Assembly: GCA_016789785.1 (NCBI GenBank)
Contig: JAEUQE010000257.1
Coordinates: 1-11,740, forward strand
DNA: 11,740 nucleotides
Source: Bryobacterales bacterium
GTDB taxonomy: Bacteria > Acidobacteriota > Terriglobia > Bryobacterales > Bryobacteraceae
Direction of reading: 5' to 3'
Below are positions 448-10,831 of this stretch, one piece after another. The translations under genes were made by a program, and so were the position numbers. Below the pieces are notes generated by a model. It was not told the DNA's origin. It saw nothing but the letters and a program-made list of their open reading frames with translations, and searched no databases. Position 1 is the first letter of the stretch. Every line of letters begins with the position of its first letter.

Positions 448-1041
448 TTAGAGATCCACGAAGTTCTTCACGATGCGAAGTCCCAGCGGCCCGGACTTCT
501 CGGGGTGGAACTGAACACCGAACAGGTTCTGGCGTTCGAGCACGGCGGTGTAGGGAACACCATACTCGCACGTGGCGGCAGTCGCGTCCACCACGGGGCA
601 ATAGTAGCTGTGCGCGAAATAGAGATAGGGCCTGGGGCCGAGATTCTTCACAAGTGACGCATCGTCGCGCGGCGCGATCTCGTTCCAACCCATATGCGGC
701 ACGCGCAATTCGTGCGAGAAGCGCTTCACCACGCCGGGCACCAGGCCGAGGCCCTTCAATCCCGGAGCTTCCTCACTCGATTCGAACAGGGCCTGCAGTC
801 CAAGACAGATCCCTAGAAACGGCACGCCATCGTTGATGTTGCGCAGAATCGGCTCGCGCAGACGCATCATTTCGAGCGCCCGGATCATCTGTCCGAAATG
901 CCCCACGCCCGGAAGAATGATCTTCGATGCTGCCCTAAGCTGATCAGGGGTATGCGCCAAACGGTAGGCTGCTCCGATTTCCGCAAGCGTGTTCTGCACG
1001 CTGCGTAGATTGCCTGCACCGTAGTCGATGATGGCGATCAT
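448..1041 (-). CDS. hisH: Imidazole glycerol phosphate synthase glutaminase subunit HisH
   Basis: HisH is the glutamine amidotransferase partner of HisF and releases ammonia from glutamine for imidazole ring formation. At 197 residues it has the usual length. It starts [15 protein letters not shown], the standard class I GATase opening. The triad is visible: nucleophile C79 in GICLGLQ, then H179 and E181 in [10 protein letters not shown]. The oxyanion-strand motif is PGVGHFG (44-50). The ATG shares four bases (ATGA) with the end of hisB, and an AAGGGA sequence lies about six bases upstream. The stop is two bases before hisF, so the two subunits are made together. Confidence 0.97.
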
Positions 1042-1625
1042 AACAGTCCCTTCGTGGATGGCAGTTCATCCTTCAGGCGTTGATCCTTCGAGCACGCGAA
1101 CTTCATGGCGCGCGCGAAACACTTGTAGATGGCCTCGATCTTATGGTGATTCGAACGGCCGTATAACACCTTGACGTGCAGGTTCGCGCCGCAGTTGCTC
1201 ACAAAGCCATCAAAGAAATCGTGCACAAGCTCCGTTTGCAGATCGCCCACCAAGCGCACCTTCACCAGATCCTTATACGCGAGAGCGGGACGTCCGCCAA
1301 GATCCACCGCAACCACGGCCAACGTCTCATCCATCGGCAACACAAAGTAGCCCGCGCGATTGATCCCTTTCTTGTCGCCGAGCGCCTGCTTGAAGAGCTG
1401 GCCGAGAAAGATGCCGCAATCCTCCACCGTATGATGCTGGTCGACATCCAGGTCGCCGGCCGCTTTCAAGGTGAGATCGAAGCCGCCATGCTTGGTGAAC
1501 AACTCGAGCATGTGATCGAGAAAGCGAATGCCCGTGGAGATGTCGTACCGGCCCTTGCCCTCGATCTTGAGCTGGCCGCGGATCTGCGTCTCCTTCGTGT
1601 TCCGTTCAAGCTGAGCGCTGCGCAA
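1038..1625 (-). CDS. hisB: Imidazoleglycerol-phosphate dehydratase HisB (monofunctional), TTG start
   Basis: HisB dehydrates imidazole glycerol phosphate to imidazole acetol phosphate. The protein has 195 residues, the length of the monofunctional enzyme without the phosphatase domain found in E. coli HisB. The metal-binding repeats are clear: HHTVED (64-69) and HHKIEAIYK (160-168), with FLDHML at 35-40. The frame stays open further upstream, but I place the start at the TTG that gives (M)[14 protein letters not shown], because family proteins begin at ERxTKET and a GGAGGA sits five bases before it. This start lies 20 bases inside the upstream HAD gene, in another frame. The stop overlaps the hisH start by four bases. 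Confidence 0.95.
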
Positions 1626-2295
1626 AGAAATCCTCCAGAGCGTTGATGTCTTCGAATACGGCAACCGCGTCTTCCGCGGCAAACAGGTCGAGCAGTTCCT
1701 GGCGCCGCGAGTGCGACTGGCTGGCCACTCCAATGAACGGAACACCGGCCGCCTTGGCACAACGTGCATCATCCACGGTGTCGCCCACGTACCACATCGG
1801 CTGGCCCGGACGCATCGCCGCGATCTTGTGCAGCCCCTCGGGATGTGGCTTGCCATGCGTCACATCATCGGCGGTCATCAGCGGATCGAAGGTCAGATGC
1901 GGCGCGAAACGATCGAGTGTCAGGCGCGCTTCGTCGCGCGGGCGGCCCGTGTACACCGCAAGATCGAGCATGGAGGCCAGCCGGTCGAGCATGCCGTCGC
2001 GCGAAATCCAACGCTCGCGCAAGATGAGACCGTTGGTGCCATCACCAAGAAACAGCTTCTGAAAATAGTCCACTACGGTATCGTAAGCGACCTCGACACC
2101 AAGATCGGCAGCCATGCGGTGCGACAGCTTCCAGTCGTTGTTCCAGCCCCCGGCGTTCTTGTACTGCTGGATATCGTCGTAGCTGACGGGCTTGCCCGTG
2201 AAGTGCTCCACGGTTTGCCGGATCGTCTCCCGGTACGACTCGGTCACCTCCACCAGAACGCCGTCCATGTCAAAAACAAGCAGTTGACGAGCCAT
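1606..2295 (-). CDS. HAD superfamily subfamily I phosphatase, probable histidinol-phosphate phosphatase
   Basis: This 229-residue protein has all four HAD motifs: nucleophile D9 and acid D11 in FDMDGV, T116 in YTGR, K149 in HGKPHPEG, and the acidic motif GDTVDD (171-176). About 100 residues separate motifs I and II, enough for a helical C1 cap. That makes it subfamily I, unlike the capless N-terminal phosphatase of E. coli HisB. It sits between hisC and hisB: its ATG shares one base with the hisC stop (TGATG) and its end overlaps hisB by 20 bases. No other histidinol-phosphatase gene is visible in the operon, so this step is the most likely role. The role is inferred from position; the family is certain. 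Another small-phosphate substrate is possible. Confidence 0.85.
1631..1636 (-). promoter_or_regulatory. Ribosome binding site deciding the hisB TTG start
   Basis: GGAGGA on the minus strand lies five bases before the TTG at 1625-1623 and inside the end of the HAD gene. No ATG or GTG in the hisB frame is near it, so it supports TTG as the true start. Confidence 0.75.
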
Positions 2296-3359
2296 CACCA
2301 GATCCGCTCCAGTTCGGCGAGGAATCGCCCCACCTGTTCGCGGGTGCCGATGGTGACCCGCACACATCCCGCAATCTCATAGCTCCGGTCGCGCACCAGC
2401 ACGCCCGCCGCACGCAGCTTGTCGCGAATCTCGATCGCGCGTGTGCCCGCGTGGAACAACACGAAGTTCGCCTGGCTTGGATAGAACGGAATGCCGAGCT
2501 TCCCGAGTCCTTCGTAGACCAGATCCTTGGCCTGCAGCACTTCCGCGACGTAGTTCGCGACGTAGCCGGTGTCCTCCACCGCCGCGCGCACGGCGATCGC
2601 CGCCAGCATGTTCACACTGTAAGGCGACTGCCCCTTGCGCAGATATGCGACGTTCGCAGCCTGGCTCATCAGGCAGCCCATGCGCATCGCGGCCATGCCG
2701 TAGACCTTCGAGAATGTGCGGCTCACGAACAGGTTGGGATACTCCGCCAGCAGACCCATCGCAGTGACGCCGGAAAACTCGTAGTAAGCCTCGTCAATCA
2801 GCACCGCGGCGTGTGGCGCCGCATCCAGAATCCGGTGAACCGAAGCCAGATCAACTCCCGTTCCTGTCGGATTGTTCGGATTCGCGATGAGGATCGCGCG
2901 CGTTTCGGGACGTACGGCCGCAAGCAGTTCTTCGAGCGGGAAGGCAAGATCCTTCTCCCGGTAGCAGAGCTCGCGCACCGAGGCTCCGGCCACCTCTGAG
3001 TAGAAGCGGTACATCGCATAGGAAGGATGGAGCACGAGCACATCGTCGCCATCATCCACATAAGTGTTGACCAGCACCTGAATCGCCTCATCGGTGCCGT
3101 TGGTCAACGCGAGTTGCGCATCGTCAATCGAGAAGAATCGCGAGAGCACGGCCCGCGTCTCGGCGTATTCGGGATACACCGTGAAGATGTTCGCGTTGAG
3201 ATGCTCCTTCAGATAGGCGATCACACGCGGCGAGCAACCCACGGTGTTCTCATTGAAGTCGAGCCTTAGCTTGTCGGCACGTCCCGCCGTGGGCGGCGAG
3301 TATGGCGCCATCTTCTCAATCGCCGCGCGAGGCTTCAGTGTTGCGGCGTCACTTGGCAA
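2295..3359 (-). CDS. hisC: Histidinol-phosphate aminotransferase HisC, probable TTG start
   Basis: HisC is the PLP enzyme that transaminates imidazole acetol phosphate to histidinol phosphate. It has 354 residues from the chosen start. Family marks are LDFNENT (33-39), TNGTDEAI (86-93), NPNNPTGTG (160-168), IDEAYYEF (188-195) and the Schiff-base lysine K218 in RTFSKVYGMAAMRMG. The open frame extends further upstream inside hisD, but TTG at 3359 is preceded four bases away by GAGGTG and gives a leader of usual length before KPRAAIEKMAPYSPP. A CTG seven codons further in is the alternative. The start overlaps hisD by 11 bases and the stop shares a base with the HAD gene. Confidence 0.95.
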   Translation of the reverse strand: MPSDAATLKPRAAIEKMAPYSPPTAGRADKLRLDFNENTVGCSPRVIAYLKEHLNANIFTVYPEYAETRAVLSRFFSIDDAQLALTNGTDEAIQVLVNTYVDDGDDVLVLHPSYAMYRFYSEVAGASVRELCYREKDLAFPLEELLAAVRPETRAILIANPNNPTGTGVDLASVHRILDAAPHAAVLIDEAYYEFSGVTAMGLLAEYPNLFVSRTFSKVYGMAAMRMGCLMSQAANVAYLRKGQSPYSVNMLAAIAVRAAVEDTGYVANYVAEVLQAKDLVYEGLGKLGIPFYPSQANFVLFHAGTRAIEIRDKLRAAGVLVRDRSYEIAGCVRVTIGTREQVGRFLAELERIW

Positions 3360-4593
3360 GCCGCACCTCAACACTGCGCGCGTGCGCTTCCAAACCCTCC
3401 GCACGGGCGAGCGTCGTAATCACGGGTGACAAACGGCGCAACGCTTCGCCATTGAGTTCCTGCACGGCGATCACTTTCACGAAGTCGGCAGCCGATAGTC
3501 CGCCGCGCAGACGCGCCGCACCGTTGGTGGGAAGCACATGGCTCGGTCCGGCCGCATAATCGCCCGCGGCCTCGGGCGAGTTGCCTCCCACAAACACCGT
3601 GCCCGCATGCTTCACCTGATCGAGCAACCGCAGTTCGGGAATACTGAGATGCTCGGGGGCAAACTGGTTCGACATCTCCACAGCCTGGTCAAGCGAGTTC
3701 GTGATGATGATGGCGCTGTTCTTGTCGATCGACTTGCGCGCCACCTTCGCGGTGGAGAGATCGGCAAGCTGCTTCTCTACTTCCATCGCGACAGCGGAGG
3801 CGAGTTTGCGAGAGGGCGTGAACAGTATCGCAGCGGCGTCGACATCGTGCTCTGCTTGCGCCAGCATGTCGGCGGCGATCCAGCGCGGATCCCCATCCGC
3901 GGCGATGATCACAACCTCGGTCGGCCCGGCCACAAAGTCAATGCCTACCTCGCCGGCAAGCAGTTTCTTGGCGGCCGTGACGTACGCGTTGCCGGGACCG
4001 ACAATGCGGTCCACTTTTGGCACGGATTTCGTGCCGAATGCAAATGCTGCAATCGCATGTGCGCCGCCCATCTGAAACACCGTGGTCACATCGAGCATCG
4101 AAGCCGTGCCGTAGATCTCCGTAGTGGGCCTCGGCGATGCGACAAATACGTTCGTCACTCCAGCGGCCTGCGCCGGAATCACCGTCATCATCAGAGTGCT
4201 CGGCAGCGGATAGCGGCCGGAGGGCACGTAAGCGGCAACCGCATCCAACGGGCGGACAATCTGCCCCAGGCGGATGCCCGGCGCGAGTGCCTTGCGGAAC
4301 GGCTTCGGCACCTGGAGTTTCGCATAGCCGCGGATGTTGTTGGCGGCCGTTTTCACGGCGCTGCGGAAGTCCGGCGAGAGCTGATGTTCGGCGGCGCGCA
4401 ATTCGTCAGCGGGCACGACGACGCTCGAGCGAGTAAGTCCATCGAGTTTCTTGGCGTACTGAACCAGCGCTTTATCGCCCTTCTTCCGGACGGCTTCGAG
4501 GATGGGTTTTACGGTCTTTTCAGCTTCCTCGAGCCGTGTCTTGCGCCGCTCCAGTAATGTCGAGGCCTGGTTAGATTCAAGAATACGGATCAT
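3349..4593 (-). CDS. hisD: Histidinol dehydrogenase HisD
   Basis: HisD is a zinc enzyme that oxidises histidinol to histidine in two NAD-dependent steps, the last in the pathway. It has 414 residues, close to the family norm of about 430. Residues matching the zinc ligands of the E. coli enzyme are Q246 and H249 (AQAEHD), D345 (AGDYAAG) and H404 (LEAHARS). The catalytic pair E314/H315 is in FAPEHLS. Other marks are GRYPLPSTLMM (126-136), RIVGPGNAYVTAAK (196-209) and the AGPSHVLPTNG loop (348-358). The start is the ATG giving MIRILES; the open frame continues upstream into hisG but without family-like sequence. The gap after the hisG stop is five bases and the ribosome site is weak. Confidence 0.97.
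   Translation of the reverse strand: MIRILESNQASTLLERRKTRLEEAEKTVKPILEAVRKKGDKALVQYAKKLDGLTRSSVVVPADELRAAEHQLSPDFRSAVKTAANNIRGYAKLQVPKPFRKALAPGIRLGQIVRPLDAVAAYVPSGRYPLPSTLMMTVIPAQAAGVTNVFVASPRPTTEIYGTASMLDVTTVFQMGGAHAIAAFAFGTKSVPKVDRIVGPGNAYVTAAKKLLAGEVGIDFVAGPTEVVIIAADGDPRWIAADMLAQAEHDVDAAAILFTPSRKLASAVAMEVEKQLADLSTAKVARKSIDKNSAIIITNSLDQAVEMSNQFAPEHLSIPELRLLDQVKHAGTVFVGGNSPEAAGDYAAGPSHVLPTNGAARLRGGLSAADFVKVIAVQELNGEALRRLSPVITTLARAEGLEAHARSVEVRLAK
3364..3369 (-). promoter_or_regulatory. Ribosome binding site deciding the hisC TTG start
   Basis: GAGGTG on the minus strand lies four bases before the TTG at 3359-3357, within the last codons of hisD. It favours the TTG over longer in-frame starts. 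Confidence 0.6.
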
Positions 4594-4598
4594 GTCAC

Positions 4599-5468
4599 TT
4601 ACATCACTATCTTGTTCAATGGATATTCCACGATCCCTTGCGCACCGGCCTCTTTCAGGCGCGGAATGATGTTTCGAACAGTGGTCTCGTCGAGAATGGT
4701 ATTCACAGCGAGCCACTCTCCGTCGCTCAAGGGGGAAATGGTCGGGTTTTTGAGGGCCGGCAGAGCCGAAAGTACCGTGGCCAGGTTGTCCTTGTGGACG
4801 TTCAGCATCAGGCCGACCTTGCCCAGCGCCGCGATGGCGCCCTCAAGCAGCATGCGAATATCTTCCAGCTTGCGCCGCTTCCACTCATCGTTCCAGGAGT
4901 CCTTGTTTGCGACGAACTGCGTGTTCGATTCCATGACGGTATCGAGAATGCGGAGTTTGTTGGCCCGCAACGACGATCCGGTCTCGGTAACCTCCACGAT
5001 CGCGTCCGCAAGTTCGGGCGGCTTCACTTCCGTGGCTCCCCACGAAAATTCGACCTTCGCGGTAACTCCGTGCGAGGCGAGATAGCGTTTGGTCGCGCCC
5101 ACTAATTCCGTCGCAATGATCTTACCCTCCAGATCCGTCACCTTCTGAAAGGGGGACGCCTCGGGCGCGGCGAGAACCCATCGCACCTTGCCGAAACTCT
5201 GCTTCGCGTAGATTAGGTCCGCCACCGTGACCACATCGGCGTCGTTCTCGATCACCCAGTCATAGCCGGTGAGACCCGCGTCCAGGACGCCGTCCTCGAC
5301 GTAGCGGGCCATTTCCTGAGCCCGGATCAGCATGCAGTCGATTTCCGGATCGTCAATTCCCGGAAAATACGAACGGCTGCTGGTGGTGATGTTAAATCCC
5401 GCCTTGCGGAACAACTCGATCGTCGCGTTTTCCAGACTCCCCTTCGGAATCCCTAACTTGAGTTTCAA
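4599..5468 (-). CDS. hisG: ATP phosphoribosyltransferase HisG, long form, TTG start
   Basis: HisG joins ATP and PRPP in the first committed step and is the usual target of histidine feedback. At 289 residues it is the long form. The catalytic part opens [11 protein letters not shown], has GLTGYDW (65-71) and the PRPP loop [13 protein letters not shown] (160-172). A C-terminal ACT-like regulatory domain covers roughly 215-289 ([10 protein letters not shown]...PTISPL). Long-form enzymes do not need a HisZ partner and bind histidine themselves, so feedback inhibition is expected. The start codon is TTG, four bases after GGAGGT and just beyond the hisI TGA. The genome copy thus combines transcript attenuation with enzyme feedback, if both work as in known systems. 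Confidence 0.97.
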
Positions 5469-5469
5469 C

Positions 5470-5844
5470 TCAACCTCCGTAGACTTTGCCGGGATCGAAC
5501 TTACGTTCGTCGGTAACTACCCAGTCAGTGTGAACCAGCTTACGGTAGAAGCAGCTTTCATAGCCGTTGTGACAGACGCCCGGCCCGAGCGCCTCCACCT
5601 TGACAACCACCGAATCCAAATCGCAATCCGTGGTGATTTCCTTGACGACGAGGCGGTGTCCCGAGCTTTCACCCTTCAGCCAGAGCTTGTTGCGGGAACG
5701 GCTGTAAAAAGTGGCAAAGCCGGTTTCCACTGTCTTTTGAAACGCGACGTCGTTCATGAAGCCGACCATGAGCACGCGTCCGCTGACATGATCCTGGATC
5801 ACTGCCGGAATCAGGCCATCGAGTTTTGAAAAATCGAGTTGCAT
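5470..5844 (-). CDS. hisI: Phosphoribosyl-AMP cyclohydrolase HisI (single-domain)
   Basis: HisI opens the purine ring of phosphoribosyl-AMP, the third step of the pathway. The 124-residue protein is the cyclohydrolase alone; the HisE pyrophosphohydrolase domain fused in E. coli is absent. Family marks are the [16 protein letters not shown] segment (48-63), the Mg-binding D73, D75 and D77 in TDCDLD, and zinc cysteines C74, C91 and C98 ([11 protein letters not shown]). It is the first structural gene of the operon: its ATG is 20 bases after the leader terminator stem, with only a weak GGGG ribosome site. A separate hisE should lie elsewhere in the genome, possibly beyond the left edge. Confidence 0.97.
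5473..5478 (-). promoter_or_regulatory. Ribosome binding site deciding the hisG TTG start
   Basis: GGAGGT on the minus strand lies four bases before TTG at 5468-5466 and overlaps the last codons of hisI. The TTG gives [11 protein letters not shown], the expected N-terminus. Confidence 0.75.
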
Positions 5845-5855
5845 TCGAGCCCCAC

Positions 5856-5888
5856 AAAGAAAAAGCCCGCCGGAACCGCGCGGCGGGC
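5856..5888 (-). terminator. Intrinsic terminator of the his leader (attenuator)
   Basis: Read on the minus strand, GCCCGCCG (5888-5881) pairs perfectly with CGGCGGGC (5872-5865) across an 8-base loop and is followed by TTTTTCTTT. This is a strong Rho-independent terminator. It lies between the leader peptide and hisI, pointing into the operon, where only a conditional terminator makes sense. Confidence 0.9.
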
Positions 5889-5940
5889 CACTTACCTAAC
5901 CTTGGAAACGGTTCTTTGATTTAGAACCAAGCCCGTCGCG
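5879..5940 (-). promoter_or_regulatory. Antiterminator pairing of the his attenuator
   Basis: CGCGACGGGC (5940-5931, codons 21-24 of the leader peptide) can pair with GCCCGCCGCG (5888-5879, the first arm of the terminator plus part of its loop) at nine of ten positions, with one A-C mismatch. The two structures exclude each other. A ribosome stalled on the His codons leaves the 5940-5931 arm free; one that reaches the stop codon covers it. A third element, GCCGTC (5989-5984), can pair with GACGGGC (5937-5931) with one bulge, and would act as the protector hairpin when the leader is not translated. Confidence 0.7.
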
Positions 5941-6001
5941 GCACGTTCCCACGGCGAAAGTGGCGGTGATAATGAAAGTGCGGGACGGCGTGCAATGGCA
6001 T
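5921..6001 (-). CDS. hisL: Candidate histidine operon leader peptide
   Basis: This is a short open frame of 26 codons plus TAA, starting with ATG nine bases after a TATAAT box. Its peptide holds histidines at positions 4, 8, 10, 12 and 14, four of them in HFHYHRH, followed by an arginine-rich tail. Attenuator leader peptides of amino-acid operons carry runs of the regulated amino acid; a ribosome stalls there when charged tRNA is short. Here the His codons end about 20 bases before an antiterminator arm, and the stop codon is about 30 bases before the terminator. No Shine-Dalgarno is possible if transcription starts where the box predicts, so translation may be leaderless. It is called from composition and position only. 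Confidence 0.8.
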   Translation of the reverse strand: MPLHAVPHFHYHRHFRRGNVPRRAWF

Positions 6002-6016: not shown

Positions 6017-6083
6017 CAGTACTCGCGACCGGATGGCACCAAGGCTTTGATTGCGAGGTACCATGCGCAACATAGACCGGGTG

Positions 6084-6097: not shown

Positions 6098-6934
6098 ATG
6101 CTCAGCCGCCGCGAACTGTTGGCCCTTGCCTCGACCGGGTTGCCTGGCGCCGCAGCCACGCAGATTCGTGCCGGCTGCCAGACACGCTGCTTTGGCATGC
6201 CGCTGAAGGAAAAGGACCGTTTCCTGGCGGCGCTGGATGATATCGCGGCGACGGGATATGAGGGCTTCGAGACGAATTTCATCAACCTTCAGGCTCACTT
6301 CGATGAGCCCGCTGAGATGTTGGAGTCCTTCCGGAAGCGGAAGCTTGCGCTGATCGGGCTGCATGGCGCGCCAAGGTTGCACCGGCGCGACCTCCTGGAT
6401 GCCGAACTTGCGCAGGCAGTGCGCATTGCCTCCGGAATTCGCGCGCTCGGCGGCGCTTACTTTGTGATGAGCGGCAGCAGTCTGCCACGAGGCCCGGAGT
6501 TGAAGCCGTGGGCGAATCAGGTGGCTCGTTTCGGCAGGCTGTGCAAGGATCACGGCGTGACTCTCGCCTATCACAACCACGCGAGCGAACTGGAAAACGA
6601 TGGCGAGATCCTCAACGGTTTGCTCCACGAGACGCGCCCGGAAGACGTCGCGCTCCTGCTTGACGTGAGCTACTTCGCGGAAGCCCCGTCGAATCTGTCA
6701 GGCGTCCTTTCAAAATACGCCAGCCGGCTGGCAGGCGTGCACCTGCGAACCATGCGCGGCAAGGACGAAGCGATGCTGGAAGGCGCGCCGGACCTTGCCG
6801 AAATGGCGGCGCTGCTGCACCGCCAGCGATGGAGTGGTTGGGCGATCGTCGAATTGAATGTTCGGCAGGATCTATCGAGCCGCGAAATGGTGGCGCAATG
6901 CCGCAAGTTCATGCGCGAGAAGATGAAGATCTGA
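6098..6934 (+). CDS. Sugar phosphate isomerase/epimerase (TIM barrel, xylose isomerase-like) with Tat-type signal
   Basis: This is a 278-residue protein of the AP-endonuclease-2/xylose isomerase-like TIM-barrel family. These enzymes bind a divalent metal and isomerise or epimerise sugars; the substrate cannot be told. Family marks are FETNF (57-61), LIGLHG (85-90), the metal-site YHNHASE (158-164), LLLDVSYF (186-193), GVHLRTM (213-219) and VELN (251-254). The N-terminus MLSRRELLALAS has a twin arginine and a short apolar stretch ending near GAAA (17-20), so export through Tat is likely. The frame is open from 5960, but that part overlaps the his leader and lacks family sequence; ATG 6098 with the Tat motif is chosen. 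The next gene starts 16 bases later, suggesting a two-gene unit. Confidence 0.85.
   Translation: MLSRRELLALASTGLPGAAATQIRAGCQTRCFGMPLKEKDRFLAALDDIAATGYEGFETNFINLQAHFDEPAEMLESFRKRKLALIGLHGAPRLHRRDLLDAELAQAVRIASGIRALGGAYFVMSGSSLPRGPELKPWANQVARFGRLCKDHGVTLAYHNHASELENDGEILNGLLHETRPEDVALLLDVSYFAEAPSNLSGVLSKYASRLAGVHLRTMRGKDEAMLEGAPDLAEMAALLHRQRWSGWAIVELNVRQDLSSREMVAQCRKFMREKMKI

Positions 6935-10754: not shown

Positions 10755-10831
<77 letters not shown>

Follow-up and report, generated by a model that had tools for sequence, protein, structure and literature searches.

The question raised by this locus is what a short, His-rich reading frame does between a promoter-like box and a terminator ahead of a his operon. 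In the window, by which is meant the whole stretch of 11,740 nt that was analysed, the minus strand carries in order a TATAAT box, a 26-codon ORF with five His codons, an intrinsic terminator and the genes hisI-hisG-hisD-hisC. The -10 box TATAAT occupies positions 6016-6011 (minus strand), nine bases upstream of the ATG at 6001, and a consensus scan picked up a weak -35-like hexamer, GTGCCA (6034..6039, minus), 17 nt upstream of that box. The leader ORF, MPLHAVPHFHYHRHFRRGNVPRRAWF, comprises 26 codons plus TAA and spans 5921..6001 on the minus strand (stop codon 5923-5921). According to its translation, His is encoded at codons 4, 8, 10, 12 and 14, the first of these at 5992-5990 and the other four among the seven residues of HFHYHRH (5960..5980, minus). 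The terminator stem-loop was placed by the consensus scan at 5889-5864 (minus), followed by TTTTTCTTTG; with its U-run, the intrinsic terminator (3:4) covers 5856..5889 on the minus strand, as delimited by consensus scan and comparative filters. An earlier sequence-only reading had pointed out this 26-codon frame with its five His codons between the TATAAT box and the terminator preceding hisI; translation bore out its coordinates and counts, and the consensus scan confirmed the arrangement on the minus strand. In the fold, a small hairpin, GGTTCT..AGAACC, lies at the leader stop codon (5910..5928, minus), and in the alignment it can be seen by eye also in the close relatives L060, L050 and L065.

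Downstream of the leader, hisI (5470..5844, minus) is the first structural gene, with NCBIfam model PRK00051.1 matched above its cut-off, followed by a long-form hisG with a TTG start (4599..5468, minus), also recognised by an NCBIfam model, for which residues 1-286 were scanned. The rest of the operon, hisD, hisC, a HAD hydrolase gene, hisB and hisH, lies on the minus strand within the approximate limits 448..4716, and hisF, translated from the same strand, runs on to the end of the window. For hisD, hisC and hisB the NCBIfam models were above cut-off, while hisH and hisF are presumably these genes, as judged from their translations. Taken together, NCBIfam models back HisI, HisG, HisD, HisC and HisB after the leader. 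Between hisC and hisB, the product of the HAD-type hydrolase gene (1606-2367, minus) scored 137.6 bits with TIGR01548, just under the cut-off of 140.2, and could be the histidinol-phosphate phosphatase of the operon. The region containing the his promoter is shared with a divergent neighbour (6098-6934, plus), which matches myo-inosose-2 dehydratase only weakly and in part (60.7 bits against a cut-off of 290). A tRNA gene is located at 10755-10828 on the plus strand (Rfam RF00005, 70.4 bits).

Within the window, the promoter and terminator elements alone are weak evidence: in the 1.2 kb covered by the consensus scan, two promoter-like sites were found where 0.3 were expected, and terminator-like sites are not rare, three having been found where 1.6 were expected. 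Folded alone, the leader of the window was no better than its shuffles (z = -0.51). A chance origin of the frame is made unlikely by conservation across the family and phylum, not by window-only statistics; it was ruled out by recurrence of the His-rich frame in family genomes and phylum-wide operons.

A scan with HisG yielded 51 loci, 11 of which were titled Bryobacteraceae or Bryobacterales. The highest-identity HisG match was L050 (91%), titled Acidobacteria, and the family of its genome is what is called the family here. Among the first eight HisG loci listed, seven were titled Acidobacteria, Paludibaculum, Bryobacterales or Bryobacteraceae, and the eighth, L008, was titled Arcobacter. On these matches, the window is likely to come from an acidobacterium. 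It should be noted that L008, together with L028 and L032 (titled Acidimicrobiia), carries an acidobacterial-type his operon with a leader; their titles are probably binning errors in public MAGs, and all three were retained. With 30 loci added from a family search of 200 genomes, 72 distinct upstream regions were available in total, and 58 of them passed the filters for frame, -10 box and terminator, some -10-like box being required of all 58. Among the 14 regions dropped, L003 has a contig that ends inside hisI; L006, L041, L064, L067 and L073 show a visible His-rich frame and were dropped for the terminator or length filter; and L033 and L035-L040, hisI loci with non-acidobacterial titles, have no frame combined with a -10 box and a terminator. 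The last, L021, lacks the leader frame, a -10 box being followed almost directly by the terminator in the ~100 nt that precede hisI; this represents either a natural deletion or an assembly fault.

A further 40 family genomes were hand-picked at steps among the matches listed, ranked below the 30 loci, with the weakest matches left unsampled; a script found the leader in 37 of these 40, and the terminator score was at least 14 in 35 of those 37 leaders. Four of the 40 (L136, L153, L159 and L162) appear to duplicate genomes already among the HisG loci. As for the three exceptions among these listed matches, the contig of L151 begins inside an apparent leader with His codons visible, L131 has a shortened frame of nine codons with two His, and L149 has no His-rich leader frame. 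When the hisI upstream regions were aligned, as the sequence-only reading had proposed, frame and terminator occurred together in nearly all family loci examined. The opposite pattern, a terminator kept after loss of the His-rich frame, had been named there as counting against the proposal; it is absent from nearly all family loci and was encountered in L021.

The survey was also extended to the phylum. Of 119 other genomes searched, 71 had a HisI match and the best 40 were taken, so that the survey leans to operons with a recognisable HisI. A frame was scored when at least four His fell within eight codons no more than 1.4 kb from the first his gene. It was present in 24 of these 40 his operons, and the same frame criterion was met three times in 625 kb of background elsewhere in those loci. 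The terminator score reached at least 14 in only 13 of the 24 frames. Four of the 16 operons lacking the frame had less than 250 nt upstream (L109, L110, L125 and L128). Operons that open with hisI carried the frame in 17 of 19 cases (L089-L107); five hisG-first and two hisD-first operons also had it, where "hisG first" means first among the genes searched, two of the five having another gene between leader and hisG. In L119 (~9831, minus) and L122 (~1549, plus) the His leader precedes a gene upstream of hisG. For L122 this gene matches a model of the HisZ regulatory subunit with E 7.8e-56, below the curated cut-off, and that of L119 is similar by eye. The leader is found ahead of hisI, or ahead of hisG, hisD or hisZ where those open the operon.

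The His codons were compared over 94 pooled leaders. The longest His run is three to six in 79 of them, for example RHHHHHHGMGG or RHHHHHRAISVRRV upstream of hisI, and only two of the 94 have no two adjacent His, which makes HFHYHRH of the window unusual; its near relative L062 has DHRHHHRRFRRENGPRRAWF at that position. The alternation of His with other residues, remarked on in the sequence-only reading, therefore holds for the window but not for most of the relatives. In 91 His blocks, 273 CAT and 167 CAC codons were counted, and CAA or CAG accounts for one of the 98 interrupting codons, compared with 35 CAA/CAG (29 of them CAG) to 28 CAT/CAC in the window's own his genes; as the frames had been selected for His, only the rarity of CAA/CAG is informative here.

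The likely leaderless start of the leader is a new element, absent from the earlier reading. When the 60 nt preceding each start codon are searched for the best -10-like hexamer, it is 8-10 nt away from that codon in 80 of the 94 leaders, a count that is partly circular because the script favoured starts near a -10 box, and the spacing was hence recounted blind. Choosing the nearest in-frame ATG gave 8-10 nt in 75 of 89 leaders, against 3.6% for shuffled upstream sequence, and choosing the 5'-most ATG gave 58 of 82. Moreover, positions -3 to -1 are 90-93% pyrimidine across the 94 leaders, so that usually no purine is met there before the A of ATG, which is, given the 8-10 nt spacing, the natural transcription start. 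The 5' UTR is probably 0-3 nt long. An alternative is a ribosome-stalling leader with an ordinary 5' UTR, in which the transcript begins at a more distant point and carries untranslated sequence ahead of the AUG. It draws on the weak -35 matches (only 2-4 of 6 positions at best in 86 of 94 leaders), on the 14 of 94 leaders whose best -10-like hexamer sits at another distance, and on the first T of the -10 box, located 14-16 nt before the ATG, which is 2-4 more than the ~12 nt that PMC3160421 gives, in the part available, as typical of leaderless genes. Against it stand the 8-10 nt spacing by all three counts, the pyrimidines at -1 to -3 that usually leave the A of ATG as first purine, and the average of 13.3% leaderless genes in three acidobacterial genomes, as stated in the same source. 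We regard an ordinary 5' UTR as unlikely but deserving of some weight, and the bias in the choice of starts, together with the spacing of 14-16 nt, has led us to give it more, at a slight cost to our confidence in the attenuator reading. Leaderless attenuators with any of ten residue types were also sought near 47 trpE/leuA loci in 18 genomes, where no credible counterpart was found, a weak negative because the trpE match was above the family cut-off in only 4 of the 18 genomes; the sole passing frame, in L177, lies ~1 kb beyond the trpE match.

The RNA supplies the second line of evidence. All three alternative pairings known from a classical attenuator can be recognised: 1:2 spans the His codons, 2:3 engages the terminator 5' arm, and 3:4 is the terminator itself. 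In the window, region 1 precedes the His cluster and overlaps its first His codon (5979..5999, minus) and pairs with region 2 as the protector 1:2; the duplex of 6004-5979 with 5953-5926 reaches -25.5 kcal/mol (p 0.06 against shuffles). Region 2, GTGCCGCGACGGGCT, located by alignment and duplex energies towards the 3' end of the leader ORF (5930..5944, minus), encodes ..PRRA... Region 3, the terminator 5' arm and loop GGCCCGCCGCGCGGT (5875..5889, minus), pairs with region 2 as the antiterminator 2:3, with a duplex energy of -22.1 kcal/mol. Fifty of the 58 loci were aligned (L015, L017, L028, L029, L030, L032, L045 and L049 were left out). In 41 of the 50, the leader part contains CGnCGGG or GGGCGGG; the terminator is GCCCGCC...GGCGGGC or a close variant, and an exact CCGTCGC is located before the His codons in nine. 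All these motifs belong to the three pairings. A Shine-Dalgarno-like AAAGGA is also present within the final 75 nt in 21 of the 50 aligned leaders (e.g. L020, L079 and L087), by eye directly before the terminator 5' arm and too distant to serve hisI.

Co-variation was examined by a partner-swap test in which duplex energies of a locus's own segments were compared with those of segments exchanged among the 58 loci in 20,000 permutations. For 1:2, own partners gave -21.7 and swapped partners -19.2 kcal/mol; for 2:3, the values were -20.0 and -18.5 kcal/mol. In both cases 0 of 20,000 permutations were as good, and the negative control 1:3 showed no effect in the same loci (19,346 of 20,000 permutations as good). 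Furthermore, region 2 with arm 3 gave a mean of -18.3 kcal/mol over the 58 loci, against -13.9 kcal/mol for synonymous recodings of the peptide end (Wilcoxon 1.7e-10). All these pooled values, those of the partner-swap test included, are too strong because the 58 loci are related. Locus by locus, p <= 0.05 was obtained in 17 of 58 for 2:3 against synonymous recodings (window p 0.17), in 25 of 58 for 2:3 against shuffles of region 2 (window p 0.07) and in 9 of 58 for 1:2 against shuffles. Over the 58-locus set, both an antiterminator 2:3 that excludes the terminator and a protector 1:2 across the His codons were found; for the window taken alone the pairing tests are suggestive only, its own value for 2:3 not being significant and that for 1:2 standing at p 0.06.

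These pairings bear on another reading of the frame, namely that its product is a small protein with a function of its own, such as metal binding, and that the terminator is unconnected with it. Runs of His do bind metals. A leader peptide can, in addition, act in trans, as described for peTrpL of Sinorhizobium meliloti in the portion of PMC7298713 that was available. However, the residues that recur apart from His in the alignment, RRA or GMGG, are precisely those whose codons form region 2, regions 1, 2 and 3 co-vary as RNA, and within the family the frame is consistently positioned ahead of hisI, with the promoter on one side and the terminator on the other. A small protein is accordingly a very improbable explanation.

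The effect of ribosome position was followed in a fold model, in which the ribosome masks up to 13 nt past the codon and pairing of arm 3 is scored before arm 4 is made. With the ribosome stalled at the first His of the cluster, pairing of arm 3 with upstream sequence exceeded a mean P of 0.5 in 57 of 58 loci, compared with 5 of 58 when the ribosome was at the stop codon. The window was the sole failure of the 58 at that first His, with P 0.25 against 0.38 at the stop; stalled at codon 4 it also gave 0.25, and a long alternative hairpin forms at both positions. At codons 10, 12 and 14 of the window the antiterminator was favoured (P 0.64-0.84 with the 13-nt footprint); when the footprint was 10 nt, codon 10 stayed at 0.25 and the stop state was 0.50. 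With no ribosome, the terminator of the window had P 0.52, the median of the 58 loci being >0.99. Once complete, the terminator is the stable state at equilibrium in most loci, with a median P of 0.96 even when the ribosome is stalled, so that the switch must be kinetic.

What the analysis itself establishes is the ORF with its His codons, the terminator, and a set of alternative pairings that co-vary between related loci. Conservation and the co-varying pairings strongly support the layout of an enterobacterial-type his attenuator that had been recognised at this locus, and the leader is very probably a ribosome-mediated transcription attenuator of the his operon, for which a response to histidine is predicted. 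RNA polymerase would start at or within ~3 nt of the leader AUG, and the ribosome would load on a nearly leaderless 5' end. With ample His-tRNA, the ribosome would reach the stop codon and cover region 2, and the terminator 3:4 would form before hisI. When charged His-tRNA is scarce, the ribosome would stall at the His codons and open 1:2, region 1 being able to pair with region 2 across them; the freed region 2 would subsequently capture the terminator 5' arm (2:3) and allow read-through into hisI-hisG-hisD-hisC. We infer in this way that read-through depends on histidine.

Control by histidine through a protein or another RNA switch, with the frame incidental, is the least probable of the readings and hardly credible: T-boxes and HisR-type repressors do govern his genes in Firmicutes and Actinobacteria (PMC9413887, as far as available), but in the window the tRNA gene alone reaches an Rfam gathering score, and a frame present by accident would not be shared by 37 of 40 family genomes among the matches listed. 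No covariance-model match to a T-box was returned for the leader stretch (Rfam, E <= 10). The 11 matches obtained there at E <= 10, all far below gathering score, include none to the his leader family of Rfam (His_leader); Trp_leader, whose gathering score is 41, reached 14.1 bits (E 2.4).

In enterobacteria, hisG comes first in the his operon, which is preceded by the hisL leader; the window operon differs by opening with hisI. A second difference from hisL is the short distance of 8-10 nt from the -10 box to the start codon, too little to accommodate a Shine-Dalgarno site. In common with the window leader, hisL has a short ORF, tandem His codons and alternative hairpins before the his operon (PMC9413887, in part). 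His attenuators have been described in Proteobacteria and several Firmicutes lineages, according to the available parts of PMC9413887 and PMC2965389. In these sources, the leaders of the Bacillus cereus group, Peptostreptococcaceae and Erysipelotrichales have 3-5 consecutive His codons, as in the relatives studied here, and share alternative terminator/antiterminator hairpins predicted comparatively. They differ in belonging to another phylum and in their targets, which include the his operon, hisS/hisZ paralogues and transporters, and a leaderless start is not mentioned in the parts available. PMC4833913 cites a conference paper of 2015 whose title refers to His-containing leader peptides in Actinobacteria. 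Regarding leaderless attenuators, those of Streptomyces lividans (Leu, Trp, Ile and others; PMC8079986) and trpL of Sinorhizobium meliloti (PMC7298713) likewise combine an ORF lacking a 5' UTR with codons for the product amino acid, and several of them have a terminator, on the available text of both papers. In contrast with the present leader, they concern other amino acids and phyla, and their starts come from transcript data, whereas here the start is inferred; in the portion of PMC8079986 available, no His leader is among the eight listed. It is probable that the device works like the textbook his attenuator, leaderless initiation being a probable variation, known for other amino acids. 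The sequence-only reading knew of no described his attenuator in this group, and no description for Acidobacteria was found in the open-access literature, subscription papers being mostly outside the search.

A more far-reaching proposal may be put forward, tentatively and as a conjecture that is doubtful as a whole: a leaderless his attenuator would be the ancestral his control of the phylum, following the operon whichever of hisI, hisG, hisZ or hisD leads it, with the non-His part of the peptide dictated by RNA pairing, and the terminated leader of ~145 nt would be a small leaderless mRNA possibly acting in trans like rnTrpL/peTrpL of Sinorhizobium.

According to a broad survey, a function was associated with hardly any of the attenuators predicted for Acidobacteria (PMC2965389, available part). 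The present analysis provides a likely function for one of them and gathers 94 distinct natural variants. The design, which is probably leaderless, would be useful for studying how ribosome and polymerase keep step when there is no Shine-Dalgarno site. It also illustrates the case of a leader peptide that seems to owe its sequence to the RNA that it must form.
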